This document shows positions 566 to 7,930 of a stretch of DNA of 39,812 bases, piece by piece. The notes beneath the pieces are model-generated. The model was not told where the DNA came from. It searched no databases and saw only the letters and a program-made list of their open reading frames with translations. The stretch is from positions 1 through 39,812 of the forward strand of contig JAPPII010000069.1 in the NCBI GenBank assembly GCA_028820845.1, in the 5' to 3' direction. Within the stretch, counting starts at the first letter, position 1, and the number at the start of each line of letters is the position of its first letter. This DNA comes from Candidatus Poribacteria bacterium. GTDB lineage: Bacteria; Poribacteria; WGA-4E; WGA-3G. The translations under genes and the position numbers were made by a program.

Positions 566-841
566 TTAGGTATAGATTTTAATTTCTTCAGGATTTATAG
601 CAACGATACGAGAAATCCGCTCAAGTTCGGCTTCGGACAGCACTTGAATGATGTCTTCCCAGACCCGGTCTTCCCGCTCTGAAGGTATGTATTTATCAAT
701 GTTAAACTTGCGGCTGATGACAAGAATTCGGATGTGTGCGTTGTCATCATCGTCAAAAACATCAACGAAATAGTCTGGATCAGGGAAAGATCCTGCTCTA
801 AGTGTATCATAAATTTTCTGCTTTAAAGTTTCACATGCCAT
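566..841 (-). CDS. Small acidic protein, copy A of a tandem pair
   Basis: This protein has 91 residues. The chosen start is the ATG at 841, because it has an AGAGGT ribosome site and its first residues (MACETLKQKI) match those of its neighbour at 855-1118. An upstream in-frame ATG at 889 would run into that neighbour. The order is a helical N-terminus, an acidic FVDVFDDDD segment, a strand ending VISRKF, then a helix and a proline-glutamate tail. The pattern 'acidic strand, VS-R/D-F, helix, tpeE' weakly recalls the BolA fold, but this is only a visual resemblance and I do not assign it. The two genes are 13 bp apart and probably share a transcript. Function is unknown. Confidence 0.6.
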   Translation of the reverse strand: MACETLKQKIYDTLRAGSFPDPDYFVDVFDDDDNAHIRILVISRKFNIDKYIPSEREDRVWEDIIQVLSEAELERISRIVAINPEEIKIYT

Positions 842-854
842 ACCTCTACCTCTA

Positions 855-1118
855 TTACCAGAATTGAACCTCTTCGGGGGTTGACCCAATCAATAAGGAG
901 ACGTGTCCCCATTCTTCGTCTGAAAGATGCTTCAGGAGTTCGTCCCAGATGATGTCGCCTCTACCTCCCATCGTGTGTCCGTTGAATTTTCTACTGACAA
1001 CGACAACATGAATGAAATCGCCAGCTCCATCGGAAACATCAACGAAATCTTTTGCATCGCTGAAGTAACCTGTTTGGAGTGTATCGTGAATTTTTTGCTT
1101 TAGTATTTCACATGCCAT
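855..1118 (-). CDS. Small acidic protein, copy B of a tandem pair
   Basis: This 87-residue paralogue of the gene at 566-841 shares the MACE.LKQKI.DTL opening, the FVDV acidic strand, the V.SRKF motif and a closing PEE. A GGAGA ribosome site eight bases before the ATG at 1118 supports the start. The similarity over the full length shows a tandem duplication that has since diverged: this copy has a GHTMGGRGD loop where copy A has an acidic, basic-flanked loop. It is the first gene of the pair in the direction of transcription. A BolA-like fold is possible but unproven, and the role is unknown. Confidence 0.6.
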   Translation of the reverse strand: MACEILKQKIHDTLQTGYFSDAKDFVDVSDGAGDFIHVVVVSRKFNGHTMGGRGDIIWDELLKHLSDEEWGHVSLLIGSTPEEVQFW

Positions 1119-1267: not shown

Positions 1268-3046
1268 TTACGGATTTTGCCTCAAGACCTGAAGCCCACG
1301 AGGAGTTATGCGATAATAGCCCGTTCTGGTTCGAGTTATCAGTCCGTTTTTTATTAAGTGCTTTTCTGCCTGTCCAGTTTTGCTCAGGTAACTCCTGGCA
1401 TCGTCAGTCAGTAAAAAGTATTCGGTAAGGCAATTGATAATTTCCACGCGGCGATGTTCCTTCCTATCGGCGAGAAGTTCAAGTGCAGGCTGCTCCATTT
1501 CTTTACCGGTGGGCAAAGTTGTCCTTTTATAAACAGGTTGGACAGGTTGTGGGGACAGTTCTTCATTACCCGAAGCGTTGAACAAGTTACGTAATTCCGT
1601 TGCTTTATTCTCTATCCACGCTTGAAAATCTTCGGAAGAAATCGTTATTTCCCAATCGCCGTTTACTTTTTCAACATTCCATCCGGCGTCCCGCATTTCT
1701 TCTTTCCCCTCAGGTCCTTGGGCATGCCAATAGTGCCAGAAGGTTTGGGTAATATTAGCTTCTGCAACATGGTACGTGTTCAAACGCTTTGTAAAAGTGG
1801 TTCCGTAAAAAGTAACAGAGTCAGGTGTGTTAATATTTGATGGTGGATATTCATCTGGTCTGATAAGGGCATTCTTACGTTCAATCTCTTCTGCTTCCTC
1901 CACGATTTGCTCCATCCTACGCATGAGATGTTCCTGGTCATCAAGGAACCCCATCGCTTCCTTTAACATGCTTGTTCGGTATTCCACCTTTCCTGCTTTT
2001 AATACCACAAATTCCCGTGATATATCCACAATGAATCCTTTGCAAACCTCTAGCTCCTCTTCTGTTTTGCTCAACCAAATTGATGTACTTTTGAGATCCT
2101 CTTGCCATTCAATCTTCTCTTCTGCTGCTGTTTCTAAATCCTTCTTTAGTTTCGCATTTTCTTCTTCCGCTTTCTCCAATTTCTTTAGCCGTTCTTCCAG
2201 TTTAGTCTTCTCCGCTACTACCGTCCTCTGTCGTTCCGTCAAGGTTTTGATGCGTTTGTCACTCTCCAATTCGATAGCTTTTCGACGATTTTCTGTTTCT
2301 GAGAGCCGTTCTTTCAATTCAACGTTCTCTGCTTTCAGTTCGTTCAACCGAGTTTGCGCACTACCATATTGTTTTTCTATCTCAATTTTCTCTTTTTCCA
2401 CTGTGTCCAAGAGTTCTTCATATTCTGCTTTCTCTACTTCTAGCCGTTTTAACTCAGCCTTTTCCGTTTCCACCACCGCCAGTCGATCTGACATTTTCGC
2501 GAGGCGTTTCTTGAGGTCAGCATTCTCTACTTCCGTTGGATGCTCTTCAGGTTCATCAGAAAAGAGTCGATCGCGAATATCCTCAACTGCTTCTTTTGCC
2601 TCTTTATTTTTAATCTCGCCGAGTACTTCAGCGACGTAAGTTAGGTTTGCCCGAGTGTGTTCGGGGTCAACATCCTCCAACCCTGGATGTGCCCAAAAGT
2701 TTCGACCTTCTACTATTGTTTCAGTCTTACTTCGGACCTTTGAATTGGAATCAAACTGTTGACTGAAGCCACGATCACGATACCAATACTTTCCGATAAT
2801 GTTTGGGAAATTCCTGATATCTATAAGAGATTCTAAGTTTCCGTTGTACCGCTGTAAGTCTCGCTCAAATTGTTCTTCTCCCCAATCGTCCAAAGAATCG
2901 CGAATTAAGTCTTCAACCTTTGCCCCTTGAATCCTGTTCAAGCATCGGACGATGAATGGACGCATAGCATCCCGGTATATATCGTGTGCTTTACGAAGTG
3001 CCTCTCTGTTAGGATATTTTGTCATATTTATGCCATGAGCCTCCAT
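1268..3046 (-). CDS. HEPN (Swt1-type), coiled-coil, winged-helix protein
   Basis: This protein of 592 residues has three visible parts. Residues about 8-165 resemble the Swt1-family HEPN domain and carry an R-x4-H motif, R115-N-F-W-A-H120, the catalytic signature of HEPN ribonucleases. Residues about 175-400 form a long Glu/Lys/Leu-rich coiled coil. Residues about 515-592 look like the winged-helix domain found at the N-terminus of Mrr-type restriction proteins (ending ITPRGLQVL). Known HEPN proteins of this kind often act in RNA cleavage, toxin or antiphage roles, so such a role is plausible here. It stands alone with no obvious antitoxin or ATPase partner. The start is uncertain: an internal ATG at 3025 follows GGAGG by about 14 bases, and the ATG at 3046 has no good ribosome site. 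Flanking repeats fit an accessory gene. Confidence 0.7.
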   Translation of the reverse strand: MEAHGINMTKYPNREALRKAHDIYRDAMRPFIVRCLNRIQGAKVEDLIRDSLDDWGEEQFERDLQRYNGNLESLIDIRNFPNIIGKYWYRDRGFSQQFDSNSKVRSKTETIVEGRNFWAHPGLEDVDPEHTRANLTYVAEVLGEIKNKEAKEAVEDIRDRLFSDEPEEHPTEVENADLKKRLAKMSDRLAVVETEKAELKRLEVEKAEYEELLDTVEKEKIEIEKQYGSAQTRLNELKAENVELKERLSETENRRKAIELESDKRIKTLTERQRTVVAEKTKLEERLKKLEKAEEENAKLKKDLETAAEEKIEWQEDLKSTSIWLSKTEEELEVCKGFIVDISREFVVLKAGKVEYRTSMLKEAMGFLDDQEHLMRRMEQIVEEAEEIERKNALIRPDEYPPSNINTPDSVTFYGTTFTKRLNTYHVAEANITQTFWHYWHAQGPEGKEEMRDAGWNVEKVNGDWEITISSEDFQAWIENKATELRNLFNASGNEELSPQPVQPVYKRTTLPTGKEMEQPALELLADRKEHRRVEIINCLTEYFLLTDDARSYLSKTGQAEKHLIKNGLITRTRTGYYRITPRGLQVLRQNP

Positions 3047-3110
3047 CTAAATAAATTTCCAAAAGTGTATCATATTTCTCCTGCAGCGTCAACCGCAAAT
3101 TGGCTTAAAT

Positions 3111-3252
3111 CAGGGTCGTTTAGTTTTAAGTGATAAGTTTATTTATGTAAAGTTTTTTGTTTCCGAAAGCCCGAATTTATTCAGGATAGCATGCTTTTCC
3201 CGAACAAGTTCGGGCTTCCGGACCTAAATTATTGGAAAACTAAACAGCCCTG
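3111..3252. mobile_element. MITE-like element A with 17-bp TIRs and 9-bp TSD
   Basis: The 142-bp element begins CAGGGTCGTTTAGTTTT and its other end, read in reverse complement, begins CAGGGCTGTTTAGTTTT. That gives 17-bp terminal inverted repeats with two mismatches. The element is flanked by a perfect 9-bp direct repeat, GGCTTAAAT, at 3102-3110 and 3253-3261. It holds no gene, only an internal hairpin (CCCGAAC/GTTCGGG). A second related copy lies at 39177-39360. Terminal repeats plus target duplication are the marks of a non-autonomous transposon moved by a transposase encoded elsewhere; a 9-bp duplication narrows the family but I do not name it. Confidence 0.85.
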
Positions 3253-3263
3253 GGCTTAAATTT

Positions 3264-3304
3264 GGGTTATTCAGTTCTCCAAAAAGCCTAAAAATGAATA
3301 ACCC
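3264..3304. repeat. Short inverted repeat, possible deleted MITE relative
   Basis: GGGTTATTCA (3264-3273) and TGAATAACCC (3295-3304) form a perfect 10-bp inverted repeat with a 21-nt loop. The outer sequence (TGGGTTATTCAGTTCTC, ending AATAACCCTGG) resembles the ends of the MITE-like elements here, especially the right end of copy B. It could be an internally deleted copy or simply a hairpin. Confidence 0.5.
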
Positions 3305-3336
3305 TGGCCTTACTAAACTTTAGACAATTTTAAGGG

Positions 3337-3411
3337 ATACACATGTCGCCCCGCTGGGGCTTGGGTCCTGGGGAATAGCGTTTCTATACACATGTCGCCC
3401 CGCTGGGGCTT
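3337..3411. repeat. Two identical 26-bp stem-loop repeats
   Basis: The same 26 bases occur at 3337-3362 and 3386-3411, starting ATACACATGTC and containing the stem-loop GCCCC-GCT-GGGGC. Two reverse-oriented relatives with different but still paired stems lie at 26765-26790 and 26813-26839. This is a dispersed stem-loop family. No T-run follows, so a simple terminator role is unlikely. Confidence 0.75.
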
Positions 3412-3480
3412 AGCGGTTTGGAGCGCGTTCTATTCACCAAATCCCAAAATTCTGATCCAAACGACCAGTGCTGAGAAGAA

Positions 3481-3525
3481 AATCCGCGAAATCTGTGTAA
3501 TCCGCTATAATCCGTGATTCAGACA
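3481..3525 (+). repeat. Dispersed AATCCGCG-type repeat, copy 1
   Basis: The sequence begins AATCCGCGAAATCTGTG and continues as tandem TAATCCG units ending ATTCAGACA. Related copies are at 26614-26657 (reverse), 26905-26951, 26950-27010 and 29248-29284. It is a low-complexity family built on a TAATCCGCG unit. Confidence 0.75.
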
Positions 3526-3560
3526 ATCAACAAATATTTTATACACCCTTTATCCTTAAG

Positions 3561-5903
3561 TCACTCTACAGAGAACACCGCAATTTTACCCGTCTCAATC
3601 CACCGTGCCACCACACTCCGCCCCGGAACCACCACATCTTTACCTTCAAACGGCTCCGTCCCGAAATTCGCGAATATCTCAACTGTATCCCCAAACGCAG
3701 TGCGTTGAACCTGCTTATCATCGCTCAACCATTCAAAATCTGTTATCGGTTTCCCGCCAATCTGCCGATGCAACGGGGAAAAGAAAGCATAGTGCCGTTT
3801 TATCCAATCTTTATGCTTTGAAAACCGTGCTGTGTTTAGATGGTACAACGGCGGGACGTTATAGAGCAGCTCCAACAACGCCACTGTCTCTATTGCATTT
3901 TTAAATTTGAGGCTACTATAACCCCAATGATGCGTCGTCACGACCGAATCGTGGAATACGATCTGGTAGAGTGGTAACCGGAAACGTGGGTCGTAATAGA
4001 TATAGAAGTAATGCTCTTTGAGGGGTACTTGTTTAACGTGAACTGCAGGTGCTTCCGGGGGCCAATACCCGCCTGTATAGTAAGGGGAGGTTTTGTCCTT
4101 CATATCTGGATCACCCCACCCAATGACAGGAGACATCATCCCGTGGGCGAAGTGGATCGTTCCTGCAGCGTAGGCGGAACCGCCTTCTGAACCGATGACC
4201 ATATCATGGGTATCCCGGACCCACGCCATCCGCGCAAGCCGTGCGTTCATGTCATCTAATTGCGTTGCAGGATGTGATGGTGAGTAATCGTCAAAGAGTT
4301 CGCCGTAAGCATCGCAGTCAATAAACCATGAGTTAAAGTCTGTTGGCATCTGTGCGACGATGCCGTTAACGCGATCTTCCACGTAAGGTTGGGCAACGAT
4401 TGGGCTTAAGTGGTATCCTTTCTGTTTAAATCCCTTACTTTTTTTGCCATCGCTCTTGACAATCCCACCGCTCTCATACAGCGACAGGTCAAACTGTGCC
4501 GTCTCCCATGTATTCTCTTCATCGGGATGGTGGATGCTATGGTAGGAATCGTAGGGTCCCACCAGATAGCCGAGTTCTCTCGCCTTAGCAACGGCAGTGG
4601 GATGCCGAAATCCGTCCTGCCATGAGTCCACACCGAGCCAGAGCCTATCCAATCCGTTTTTCGCGAACCGTTCCAGCAGCTTCACAGATAGACCGTCCCC
4701 CCACTCATCTGGATGTCGTAGGGCATTCGGAAACGCCGCGTAGAGCAGCAGACAGTTACGTCGATAGAGTTCTGGAGTCGATAGTGTAGATGGGTTTCGT
4801 GAAAGCAATTTTTCCATTTCTGGTGTCCAAGAAATCCCTACCCAAGCCGATGGATTGTAAAAATTGGGCTTCTCCAGCTGCTGACTTATCGCACGACTCA
4901 CAACCCGTTGCGCGTAATTAGATGGGTGTACTGACTCGGCGATCTCTTGGATGGCTTTCTTCGCTTCTGTATTCAATCGTGAAAAGATACGTGCCTGAAC
5001 ATTCTCGGCTGTCCATTCATCACCACCGCGACTGAGTTCTGTGGCGAACGCTTTCCAATCCGTTACATCGGACCGACTGAGCAATTTACCGCCCCAGAGA
5101 TAGGCATGCGCGGCACCGAGTAATTTCTCCGCTTCAGGGGTCTGCTCAATCTTTTCAGCGAACGAGACAAATTCACCGTTTTGCTGGAGCCATTTTCGGT
5201 ATTGTTTGGCAGGTTCAACGGGGGATGCCTCGCCGAGCGAGATACGCACGCCGTATTTTTTTTCTTTCCAGTTTGGTGTGAAAGTGTGTGACACCTGCAT
5301 GCCTAAGGTAGATGTTGCAGTCTTATGGAACCGGATTTTGTTGTTGAACGGATTTGTTAAAATATAGGTGAGTATTCTATCGCCAAGGTCGAGTCCCCAG
5401 AAGGGCATAGAGAGACCTGCGGTTGTGTTTATCGGTCCCCTTTCAGATAGAAAGTCCTGCCACATCTCGTCATCTTTTGGTACGTAACTCCCTTCAAAAA
5501 AAGGGAGAATATAAGCGTGAATAGACTCGGTGTTTTCAATAACCGGCCACGTTAAACTTTGTGCCTCGCTTGTGTCGCCATCTTGCGTAAATTCTATCGT
5601 TAGAGAGTCTTGTTGCCACTCAAGTTCAACGCGGACACTTAGAGAACGTTCTGGTAACTTCCAACTGATAACACCATCTTTGTGAGAGAAGTCTGTCACA
5701 GTACCAAATCCCTGCTGTTTCGACGAGATCGGTATTGTTATATTTGTGCCTGCCGGATAGGCGTACACGGCAAGCGACTCGGTTAAGATTTCTACATCCC
5801 ATATCTCGTTGTTGAAGCGAACCGAAGTCAATGTGTCACTCATACTGATAGAAGCCAATAGAAATATTCCTATAGATAAGATGGAAAGTCGTAGTTTGGA
5901 CAC
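3561..5903 (-). CDS. Secreted GH129/GH101-related glycoside hydrolase
   Basis: This 780-residue protein has a signal-peptide-like N-terminus (basic start, hydrophobic core to about residue 19). A beta-sandwich-like region follows to about residue 230, then a TIM-barrel catalytic region. The FIDCDAYGE motif puts an aspartate at D529, and the GSEGG motif puts a glutamate at E573. In GH129, enzymes that release alpha-linked N-acetylgalactosamine from mucin-like glycans, an aspartate nucleophile and glutamate acid/base occupy such positions; matching these two residues to those roles is my inference. The start is GTG at 5903, nine bases after GAGGA. It is the last gene of a minus-strand operon, 12 bp after a Uma2 gene, with a sugar isomerase upstream. 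Substrate is uncertain, and other barrel glycosidases remain possible. Confidence 0.65.
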   Translation of the reverse strand: MSKLRLSILSIGIFLLASISMSDTLTSVRFNNEIWDVEILTESLAVYAYPAGTNITIPISSKQQGFGTVTDFSHKDGVISWKLPERSLSVRVELEWQQDSLTIEFTQDGDTSEAQSLTWPVIENTESIHAYILPFFEGSYVPKDDEMWQDFLSERGPINTTAGLSMPFWGLDLGDRILTYILTNPFNNKIRFHKTATSTLGMQVSHTFTPNWKEKKYGVRISLGEASPVEPAKQYRKWLQQNGEFVSFAEKIEQTPEAEKLLGAAHAYLWGGKLLSRSDVTDWKAFATELSRGGDEWTAENVQARIFSRLNTEAKKAIQEIAESVHPSNYAQRVVSRAISQQLEKPNFYNPSAWVGISWTPEMEKLLSRNPSTLSTPELYRRNCLLLYAAFPNALRHPDEWGDGLSVKLLERFAKNGLDRLWLGVDSWQDGFRHPTAVAKARELGYLVGPYDSYHSIHHPDEENTWETAQFDLSLYESGGIVKSDGKKSKGFKQKGYHLSPIVAQPYVEDRVNGIVAQMPTDFNSWFIDCDAYGELFDDYSPSHPATQLDDMNARLARMAWVRDTHDMVIGSEGGSAYAAGTIHFAHGMMSPVIGWGDPDMKDKTSPYYTGGYWPPEAPAVHVKQVPLKEHYFYIYYDPRFRLPLYQIVFHDSVVTTHHWGYSSLKFKNAIETVALLELLYNVPPLYHLNTARFSKHKDWIKRHYAFFSPLHRQIGGKPITDFEWLSDDKQVQRTAFGDTVEIFANFGTEPFEGKDVVVPGRSVVARWIETGKIAVFSVE

Positions 5904-5915
5904 TGGTGTTTATCC

Positions 5916-6488
5916 TCATTCAAAAAGTTGTGAGACTTGACACGAAAAGCCTTCGACGACATCTTCACCGGTAAGGGTATCTTCGCGTGTAAGCACTTTG
6001 ATATCTGTCTCTGAACGATACACCGTTACCGTTTTTGCCACAGGTTCAATCACCCAAACGAGCTGCGTTCCGCCACTCAGATAGGTGAGCGCCTTTTCAA
6101 AGACACGGAACAGAACATCTGTTGGGGAAACGACTTCAACAGCTAGATCCGGTGGGATTGAGAACGCCTTACGTCTGTCATCTGGCAGTCGTTCTGTCGA
6201 AACAAACGCAATATCTGGTATCAAGAACCTATCGCCAATCTTAAAACCGGTGTCCGATGTGTAGACACGTCCGAGTTGATTTTCACGAACGTGTGAGTAT
6301 AAATACCACTGGATGTTAGAGCTAATATCGCCGTGTTCGCCCGAAGTTGGTGGCATCGGTATTAATTCTCCTTTGACATATTCGTATCCTTCTAAATCGC
6401 TTTCAAGAAACTCCTCAAGCGTCATATCAGTTTCTAACGGCATGAGTGATATTGCCGCTTGTTCGTGACCGGCTTTTAGCGTATTCAT
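5916..6488 (-). CDS. Uma2-family PD-(D/E)XK nuclease-like protein, copy A
   Basis: This 190-residue protein has the Uma2/DUF820 signature: MTLEEFLESD, then YEYVKGELIPMPPTSGEHG, PDIAFVS, and DLAVEVVSP followed by a strand with VWVIEP. The PDIAF aspartate and the E in VEVVSP sit where PD-(D/E)XK catalytic residues are expected. The family is predicted to be nucleases; it is abundant in cyanobacteria and Poribacteria-like genomes, and its biological role is unclear. The ATG at 6488 is preferred over the GTG at 6494 because GGAGG lies seven bases upstream of it. It is closely similar to copy B at 7293-7865, the two enclosing the sugar isomerase gene. No partner toxin or guide is apparent. Confidence 0.85.
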   Translation of the reverse strand: MNTLKAGHEQAAISLMPLETDMTLEEFLESDLEGYEYVKGELIPMPPTSGEHGDISSNIQWYLYSHVRENQLGRVYTSDTGFKIGDRFLIPDIAFVSTERLPDDRRKAFSIPPDLAVEVVSPTDVLFRVFEKALTYLSGGTQLVWVIEPVAKTVTVYRSETDIKVLTREDTLTGEDVVEGFSCQVSQLFE

Positions 6489-6524
6489 CAGCACGCCTCC
6501 TTTCTGGATTTCTATGAGAACTGT

Positions 6525-7283
6525 TTATCTTGACATCTCTTCCCACAACGCCCGATAAAAATTCATCACGCGTAGCGGGTCGGAACTCCCTGCGATTTCA
6601 GCGAGTGTGTAACCTGAATACCCGGAATCTTTCAACGATGTAAAGAGTTCCCGCCACGGATACTCGCGCCGGTGGAGTTCCGTGATATGTACCAAACCGA
6701 TTCTGCCTTTTACAAGATTAAAGTTATTCTGAATAGAGCCATTTTCGACTTCGCCGAAATTAGAGTTCCAGCAGACATAGACGTTATCGTGGTCAGCGAC
6801 ATCAATAATCGTTCGGATGTGCCGGAGTTCAGAGGTGCCGCCCCCGTGTACTTCTAACCGAATCTGCACGCCGAGGTCAGCAGCGAATTCGCCACACTCC
6901 CGCAACGCCAATCCGATTTGTTCCAGCGTCTTTTCAATAGGCACTTCTTCGGGAAGACCGTTCGGGCGCACTTTAACGCCGGGTGCCCCAACATCTGCCG
7001 CCAGTTGAGAGTACAGCTTCGTTCCGTCTATATTCTGACGAACCACCGATTGATCCACGGCGTGATAGTCAAAAGCGGATCCCAAACCAGCAATCTCAAT
7101 CGGGGAGTCATCGAATTGTTGCTTTACGGCTGCGCGTTCACTTGCCGAGAGTTCGACTTCAACGCCGTGGGCATGTGTTGTCCGTAACTCCACACCCGCA
7201 AACCCTGTTTCTACACAATTGTCAATAATTGTGGGAATATCCCAATCTTTTGCCATATTATACGTAACTAAACCCAGTTTCAT
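6525..7283 (-). CDS. Sugar phosphate isomerase/epimerase-like TIM barrel
   Basis: This 252-residue protein starts MKLGLVTYN, continues through GFAGVELR and LRLEVHGGG, and ends with a YTLAEIAGS strand. This is the layout of the xylose isomerase-like/AP-endonuclease-2 barrel family, which isomerises or epimerises sugars using divalent metal. Likely metal ligands are the E in VELR, the E and H in LEVHG, and the H and E in VHITE and LAEIAG. These are family-based guesses. AAGGAGA eight bases before the ATG supports the start. It lies nine bases after the upstream Uma2 gene and 36 bases before the next Uma2 gene, so the four genes to the glycosidase probably form one transcript. The neighbouring glycosidase makes a sugar-catabolic role plausible. 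The exact substrate is unknown. Confidence 0.8.
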   Translation of the reverse strand: MKLGLVTYNMAKDWDIPTIIDNCVETGFAGVELRTTHAHGVEVELSASERAAVKQQFDDSPIEIAGLGSAFDYHAVDQSVVRQNIDGTKLYSQLAADVGAPGVKVRPNGLPEEVPIEKTLEQIGLALRECGEFAADLGVQIRLEVHGGGTSELRHIRTIIDVADHDNVYVCWNSNFGEVENGSIQNNFNLVKGRIGLVHITELHRREYPWRELFTSLKDSGYSGYTLAEIAGSSDPLRVMNFYRALWEEMSR

Positions 7284-7292
7284 AGCGTCTCC

Positions 7293-7865
7293 TTATCTAA
7301 AAAGTTGTGCGACCTGACACGAAAATCCTTCAACAACATCTTCGCCGGTGAGCGTATCGTTGCGTGTGAGCAACTTGATGTCGCTTTCCGAACGATATAT
7401 CGTCACCGTTTTTGACCTGGGTTCAAGAACCCAGACGAGCCTCACTCCTGCGTTTAAATAGGCGAATGCCTTTTCAATGACCCTGGATTGAGTGTCTGTC
7501 CGTGAAACGACTTCAACGGCGAGGTCTGGCGGAATGGCAAACGCAGTGCTTAAATCCTCAGGTATTCGTGCTGTTGATACAAACGCGATGTCTGGTATCA
7601 ATACCCGATCACCGATCTGGAAACCTGTGTCTGGCGCATAGACATCCCCGAGTTGATTCTCACGCACATATACACCCAAGGGTAAAATGAGATTTATACT
7701 AATTTTACCGTGTTCACCTGAAGTTGGTGGCATCGGAATTAATTCTCCTTTCACATATTCATATCCCTCCATATCGCTTTCAAGAAAATCCTGCAACGTC
7801 ATGTCCGTTTCTATAGGCGCGAGCAATATTGCAGCTTGTTCGTGTGCTTCTTTTTGTGTACCCAT
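7293..7865 (-). CDS. Uma2-family PD-(D/E)XK nuclease-like protein, copy B
   Basis: This 190-residue paralogue of the gene at 5916-6488 has the same landmarks: MTLQDFLESD, GYEYVKGELIPMPPTSGEHG, PDIAFVS, DLAVEVVS and LVWVLEP. The start is placed at the ATG at 7865, which has GGGAGAGG just upstream. An ATG at 7907 would add 14 residues without a ribosome site. The closing segment (DTLTGEDVVEGFSCQV) is nearly identical in both copies, so the duplication is fairly recent. As first gene of the operon it may be driven from the divergent region at 7866-7964, where a minus-strand TATAAT (7906-7911) is visible without a good -35. A biochemical role is not established for the family. Confidence 0.85.
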   Translation of the reverse strand: MGTQKEAHEQAAILLAPIETDMTLQDFLESDMEGYEYVKGELIPMPPTSGEHGKISINLILPLGVYVRENQLGDVYAPDTGFQIGDRVLIPDIAFVSTARIPEDLSTAFAIPPDLAVEVVSRTDTQSRVIEKAFAYLNAGVRLVWVLEPRSKTVTIYRSESDIKLLTRNDTLTGEDVVEGFSCQVAQLFR

Positions 7866-7901
7866 CAGAGCCTCTCCCTTTTTTATGCTTACTGTTTTCA
7901 A

Positions 7902-7930
7902 TTGCATTATACCGAATTTTTTGCTATAAT
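7902..7930 (+). promoter_or_regulatory. Sigma-70-like promoter for the HTH-MBL gene
   Basis: TTGCAT at 7902-7907, a 17-bp spacer and a perfect TATAAT at 7925-7930 lie 34 bp before the ATG at 7965. The site sits in the short divergent region between two units, so the HTH protein could act on its own promoter and on the opposing operon. That regulation is inference. Confidence 0.7.

Follow-up and report, generated by a model that had tools for sequence, protein, structure and literature searches.

A gene that occupies one conserved chromosomal site in a genus of the sponge-symbiont Candidatus Poribacteria encodes a protein with a Swt1-type HEPN head, a long coiled coil and a tail that is swapped between homologues, and the copies at this site have not been inherited vertically. 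We read the protein as a stand-alone, single-gene RNase of conflict (defence) that seems to evolve fast and has an exchangeable, DNA-sensing tail, and we give this reading a probability of about 0.55. The DNA analysed, referred to here as the window, is the entire contig C69 (39,812 nucleotides) of a 5.7-Mb assembly; the gene and its surroundings are listed in Table 1. Among 60 related genomes surveyed, 40 match the protein, some through its Mrr_N part alone, and the named relatives that carry the gene are Candidatus Poribacteria metagenome assemblies. All genome-wide counts given below are search-based.

Table 1. Features of the HEPN-headed gene and of the site where it lies in the window
Feature	Positions	Strand	Basis
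smB, smA paralogue	566..889	-	synteny
smA, small protein, right border	855..1118	-	synteny
HEPN-Mrr_N open reading frame, 592 aa	1268-3046	-	
Mrr_N winged helix, residues ~514-592	1271..1507	-	PF14338
Alpha/beta domain, residues ~408-491	1574..1825	-	AlphaFold2 pLDDT ~85-92 across 411-480
Coiled coil, residues 177-388	1883..2518	-	AlphaFold2 helices 177-348 and 355-388
Swt1-like HEPN domain, residues ~8-168	2542..3025	-	PF18731, R-x4-H and AlphaFold2
R115-N-F-W-A-H120, predicted RNase active site	2687..2704	-	alignment of homologues
Promoter-like TTGACG-N17-TACACT	3064..3092	-	scan in which ~1 such match is expected by chance
GH129-like gene, left border, not part of the system	3561..5903	-	PF11308, E=9e-124

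From its N-terminus, the protein is composed of a Swt1-type HEPN domain, a coiled coil of about 210 residues, a small alpha/beta domain and an Mrr_N winged helix. The sequence-only reading of this DNA had described a HEPN domain fused by a long coiled coil to an Mrr-type winged helix, and this description is borne out by the PF18731 and PF14338 profiles, the AlphaFold2 model and the periodicity of the rod; it had overlooked the alpha/beta domain at about residues 410-490, which is conserved. Translation probably begins at the ATG at 3025, behind a GGAGG, which would give a protein of 585 aa, since the homologues begin at the equivalent of this methionine (Met8).

The HEPN assignment rests on sequence profile and motif, because Foldseek could not rank the helical bundle specifically against HEPN structures. 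Searched in isolation, the domain reaches E=6.9e-6 against PF18731 (HEPN_Swt1), its 26.8 bits lying just under the cut-off of 27.5. It was not detected in the Pfam scan of the full-length protein, where the coiled coil may have biased the score. The profile matches 28 of the 32 homologous domains (best E=3.4e-10), and homologue L019 exceeds the cut-off even at full length. By profile and motif, the protein belongs to the Swt1-like HEPN family. The R-x4-H motif had already been read as intact, and the alignment confirmed it: R115 and H120 are part of nine columns invariant in all 32 homologous HEPN domains, which share a mean identity of 47%. In these homologues the two residues are spaced as R-x4-H or R-x5-H, and the superfamily motif ranges over R-x4-6-H according to excerpts of PMC3710099. 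This invariance argues for the RNase chemistry being kept. The model of the head is a confident bundle made only of helices (residues 12-161, pLDDT mostly above 85), so that neither the model nor the conservation of R115 and H120 refutes the earlier reading. Foldseek searches with the full model and with the HEPN domain gave no specific significant PDB match to HEPN, 2hsb being weak and low-ranked, and a profile search of the PDB returned nothing.

The rod that follows shows a heptad-like hydrophobic periodicity of 3.5 residues, which was matched by none of 2000 shuffled sequences. Database matches to long coiled coils, bearing the names SMC, JetC, LmuB and Rad50, were discarded as compositional. 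The alpha/beta domain received no assignment in the Pfam scan and has no sequence relative in the PDB, where weak matches to urinary proteins look like chance. It is found in 9 of 38 genomes of the genus, as a single copy in each, and only joined to Mrr_N in this HEPN-headed family. The winged helix itself is matched by PF14338 (Mrr_N) over residues 516-590 (E=3.8e-11, above the family cut-off) and is modelled with a pLDDT of ~95; its Foldseek neighbours are MarR/DtxR winged helices, with a probability of up to 0.97 but E>0.1. In Mrr, it is Mrr_N that is proposed to bind DNA (PMC3874153), and by homology this tail would bind DNA as well.

The HEPN head is combined with several other tails. Besides the alpha/beta+Mrr_N cassette, it precedes DUF4268 alone, DUF4268 placed before alpha/beta+Mrr_N, an XRE-type HTH, a helicase-C-like region followed by RIN, RIN placed before the Mrr cassette, or a DUF499 ATPase. 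RIN is our own name for a wHTH-like module found after the helicase-C-like region: its ~95 residues (RIN..GS..W..IR..L.L.N..FH..IR...) have no Pfam name and recur in several family architectures, in L006 (residues 299-398), L007, L013 and at the C-termini of the helicase-C-like members. It looks like another exchangeable DNA-binding unit. The Mrr cassettes are 54-79% identical and keep many invariant residues, and among 85 genomes of the phylum no genus other than the window's yielded the full head-rod-alpha/beta-Mrr_N architecture. The DUF4268 tail matches the candidate defence family PDC-S11, and DUF4268 accompanies GmrSD Type IV restriction domains (PMC4619093). PADLOC models gave no convincing match for head or tail. 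The DUF499 form is present in the window's own genome as paralogue L004, a HEPN-headed DUF499 ATPase that scores as HmaC; the gene after it encodes HmaB, a DUF1156 adenine methylase, and by these domains L004 and HmaB form a Hma / Type-1 BR system.

Heads and tails have moved independently. Mapping the Mrr tail onto the HEPN tree takes 8 changes, and monophyly of the Mrr-bearing heads is rejected (AU p=1.5e-61). Homologues L009 and L012 carry the same tail on different heads, their DUF4268 domains being 94% identical and their HEPN domains 48%. The window protein, with its Mrr tail, forms a supported pair with L009, which has DUF4268, within a clade of five heads that also holds L013, which has RIN. 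At the nucleotide level, similarity is patchy: alignments often cover the first 31 codons, the tail, and a stretch that runs from about codon 111 to within the coiled coil, and often leave out codons 32-110; residues 32-70 are the least conserved stretch of the protein alignment. We infer that the coiled coil is a candidate recombination hinge joining head and tail. Mantel tests on 12 genomes at the fixed site gave a correlation between the identities of the flanking genes (r=0.58, p=0.0002); HEPN identity is uncorrelated with either flank (r=-0.03 and -0.07), so that the gene at this site has been replaced or recombined and not inherited vertically.

Synteny over 10-17 kb places the gene at one conserved site, between the GH129-like gene and smA/smB or their downstream neighbours. 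The site is filled in 16 congeneric genomes, including L045 and L094, whose contigs begin at the gene so that the right border alone is visible, and it is empty in 15, with nothing from GH129 to the next gene. The 16 filled sites hold the Mrr cassette eight times (once preceded by DUF4268), DUF4268 without Mrr five times (one of these being partial at a contig end), an XRE-HTH twice and one unclassified tail. The genomes look metagenome-assembled; the same site and tails are seen in the single-contig genomes G022 and G005, which argues against an assembly artefact. Ahead of a homologue lying off the site, in G025 (L047:8083-9432), are the final 41 codons of GH129, the sole GH129 trace found in that genome. 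Either departure of the gene from the fixed site or loss of the remaining GH129 there would be consistent with this. Of the 38 genomes of the genus, 37 have the GH129-like gene, one of them reduced to a short 3' remnant; in G017 and G024 (L039:7932-9878, L087) it shows an in-frame gap of ~130 residues, query residues 272-400 being unmatched.

On the right border, smA/smB (566-1118) are tandem paralogues of ~90 aa, present in one to three copies per genome at the site. They have no Pfam match and no MNT-like or known antitoxin match; a single NCBIfam match (E=0.02) gives a weak BolA-like resemblance that serves as a lead only. Several empty sites have at this spot a short PF05168-like HEPN gene or its remnant. 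This gene of sister species (147 aa) is unrelated to the Swt1-type; it is intact in L084:3063-3503, L085 and L090, degraded by stops or deletions in L086, L088 and L091, and present alongside the Swt1-type gene in L045 and L094. Filled and empty sites of other species have a promoter-like TTGAC...TGATA element in common. No recognisable defence island surrounds the gene, whose immediate neighbours are metabolic and transport genes and Uma2 genes. The latter, of a putative restriction endonuclease fold, flank a xylose-isomerase-like TIM-barrel gene at 5916-7907 of the window and number one to four at this place depending on the species. The very end of the contig carries a tRNA-Asn (gtt) on the minus strand (3-77).

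The gene had also been described as lying beside transposon-like repeats. Repeats are indeed present in the spacer (3047-3560), as an inverted repeat of 25 nt and two direct repeats of 26 nt separated by 49 nt; the link to a transposon was not supported. The 26-nt unit at 3337-3411, ATACACATGTCGCCCCGCTGGGGCTT, is REP-like: its 25-nt core has 31 copies in the genome at three mismatches or fewer and none in a reversed control, and the copies are often paired about 49-51 nt apart. Since the window has no transposase ORF from GH129 to smA, we rejected a transposon-borne gene and regard the repeats as dispersed REP-like elements. Carriage as phage or plasmid cargo was likewise rejected after searches that gave no match, of plasmids, phages and IMG/VR contigs for the HEPN head and of plasmids and phages for the alpha/beta domain.

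We infer from these data RNase activity, dimerisation, DNA as the trigger and a role in defence. HEPN RNases usually work as dimers. The N-terminal Swt1-type HEPN domain would be a metal-independent RNase, probably active as a dimer, with the coiled coil pairing its two copies. Its link to the C-terminal sensor, which in the window protein would be the alpha/beta+Mrr_N cassette bound to DNA, would be a rod with about 170 residues in helix, spanning roughly 26 nm at full extension. Recognition of foreign, modified or replicating DNA would relieve inhibition of the HEPN pair, which would then cut cellular or phage RNA and stop growth. Recombination between alleles and between paralogues, probably with its junction in the coiled coil, would exchange the tail and thus give the same RNase a new target. 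The swapping of tails at a fixed site, and the homology of the head to that of a HEPN-headed Hma/BR-type ATPase, lend indirect support to the earlier proposal of a sensor-effector in a conflict system. More tentatively, and at less than even odds, the site could hold a single-locus, cassette-switching immune receptor, in which a constant HEPN head acquires different DNA- or ligand-sensing tails, such as alpha/beta+Mrr_N, DUF4268 or XRE-HTH, by recombination through the coiled coil. The homologues would then be an allelic series of RNA-cutting sensors, with a logic like that of variable specificity subunits or NLR-type receptors. If so, an RNase effector would be re-targeted by sensor exchange at a fixed locus, without mobile-element machinery, and about 16 natural alleles, with one head family and several tails, would be available for finding out what the individual tails sense and how the coiled-coil rod transmits a signal to the HEPN active site.

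Four other explanations were weighed against a DNA-sensing defence RNase. The protein may be a DNA-bound regulator or a nucleoid-associated RNA-binding protein in which HEPN binds rather than cleaves: certain HEPN domains are non-catalytic (excerpts of PMC3710099), and the tail cassettes include XRE-like HTH domains known from regulators. We consider this unlikely, because the R and the H are invariant in 32 of 32 homologues despite a mean HEPN identity of only 47%, whereas the eukaryotic Swt1 HEPN, believed inactive, has lost the R/H motif according to the same excerpts. It is also rather improbable that the gene product acts in trans as an accessory of the resident Hma/BR system, forming a heterodimer with the HEPN-headed HmaC so that its winged helix recruits the complex to DNA and adds specificities. 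The same type of HEPN heads the DUF499/HmaC protein of the same genome, adjoining HmaB, and many of the genomes concerned also encode homologues of DUF499 size (about 1,100 aa); however, the gene at the fixed site never adjoins Hma genes, and stand-alone and DUF499-type HEPN heads are only about 40% identical.

We see little chance that the protein is the toxin in a toxin-antitoxin pair whose antitoxin or partner would be smA/smB or the small HEPN gene nearby. Although smA/smB lie directly downstream on the same strand, they are well conserved in genomes with an empty site and missing from certain filled ones, such as that of G022, and no MNT-like or known antitoxin match speaks for them. Persistence of smA at empty sites shows that it is not a dedicated partner of the HEPN gene, and the smA/smB version of the pair was rejected on the persistence of both genes there; at most sites, the small PF05168-like HEPN gene is either lacking or in decay. 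The least probable of these explanations, to which we give very little weight, is that the gene has no selected function and is a mosaic, domesticated or in decay, that arose as repeats recombined. The patchy nucleotide similarity and a stop codon in one homologue would agree with it, but dozens of copies keep long open frames and the invariant catalytic pair, and the Mrr cassettes retain the conservation described above.

Among known systems, the closest in its head is Type-1 BR / Hma, reviewed as an RM-like defence with HEPN as the probable suicide effector (passages of PMC12839542 and PMC3710099). HmaC of the Ava_2192 type has, like the window protein, an N-terminal Swt1-like HEPN with a conserved R-x4-H, but the window protein lacks the DUF499 AAA+ ATPase and has a coiled coil and a DNA-binding cassette in its place. 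No DUF1156 methylase or helicase was found among the scanned neighbours of the gene, which are GH129, smA/smB, Uma2 and transporters instead. In Mrr, a Type IV restriction endonuclease, the Mrr_N winged helix is N-terminal, whereas it is C-terminal here; the window protein has no Pfam match to a catalytic PD-(D/E)xK domain, and its effector is a predicted RNase. CoCoNuTs likewise combine coiled coils, wHTH and HEPN-type nucleases and are predicted to act on RNA, but they are multi-gene and centred on a McrBC-type GTPase (PMC11090510), while the case described here is one gene lacking an NTPase; neither McrB-type GTPase nor McrC was found in the protein or its scanned neighbours. The likeness to GmrSD-associated DUF4268 (PMC4619093) and PDC-S11 comes through the alternative DUF4268 tail of the family, the window protein itself having neither DUF4268 nor a GmrS/GmrD domain. 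Unlike HEPN-MNT toxin-antitoxin pairs, the gene has no adjacent match to an MNT nucleotidyltransferase, smA/smB being Pfam-negative. Judged by its domains, the window protein is thus not a Hma/BR ATPase, an Mrr endonuclease, a CoCoNuT or a HEPN-MNT pair. With the PF18731 Swt1-like family it shares the profile match and the R-x4-6-H motif. Swt1-like HEPN fusions to PIN/WW, to a DUF499 ATPase and to Vsr/transglutaminase/wHTH are listed in excerpts of PMC3710099; a fusion to a coiled-coil Mrr_N, to DUF4268 or to an XRE-HTH is absent from its parts on Swt1, DUF499 and Mrr, and we found no report in the open-access literature combining HEPN with DUF4268, or with Mrr and a winged helix. The parts are known, but their head-rod-tail assembly and tail swapping are apparently undescribed; the gene would offer a stand-alone version of the HEPN head of Hma/BR ATPases, where the role of this head is only proposed.
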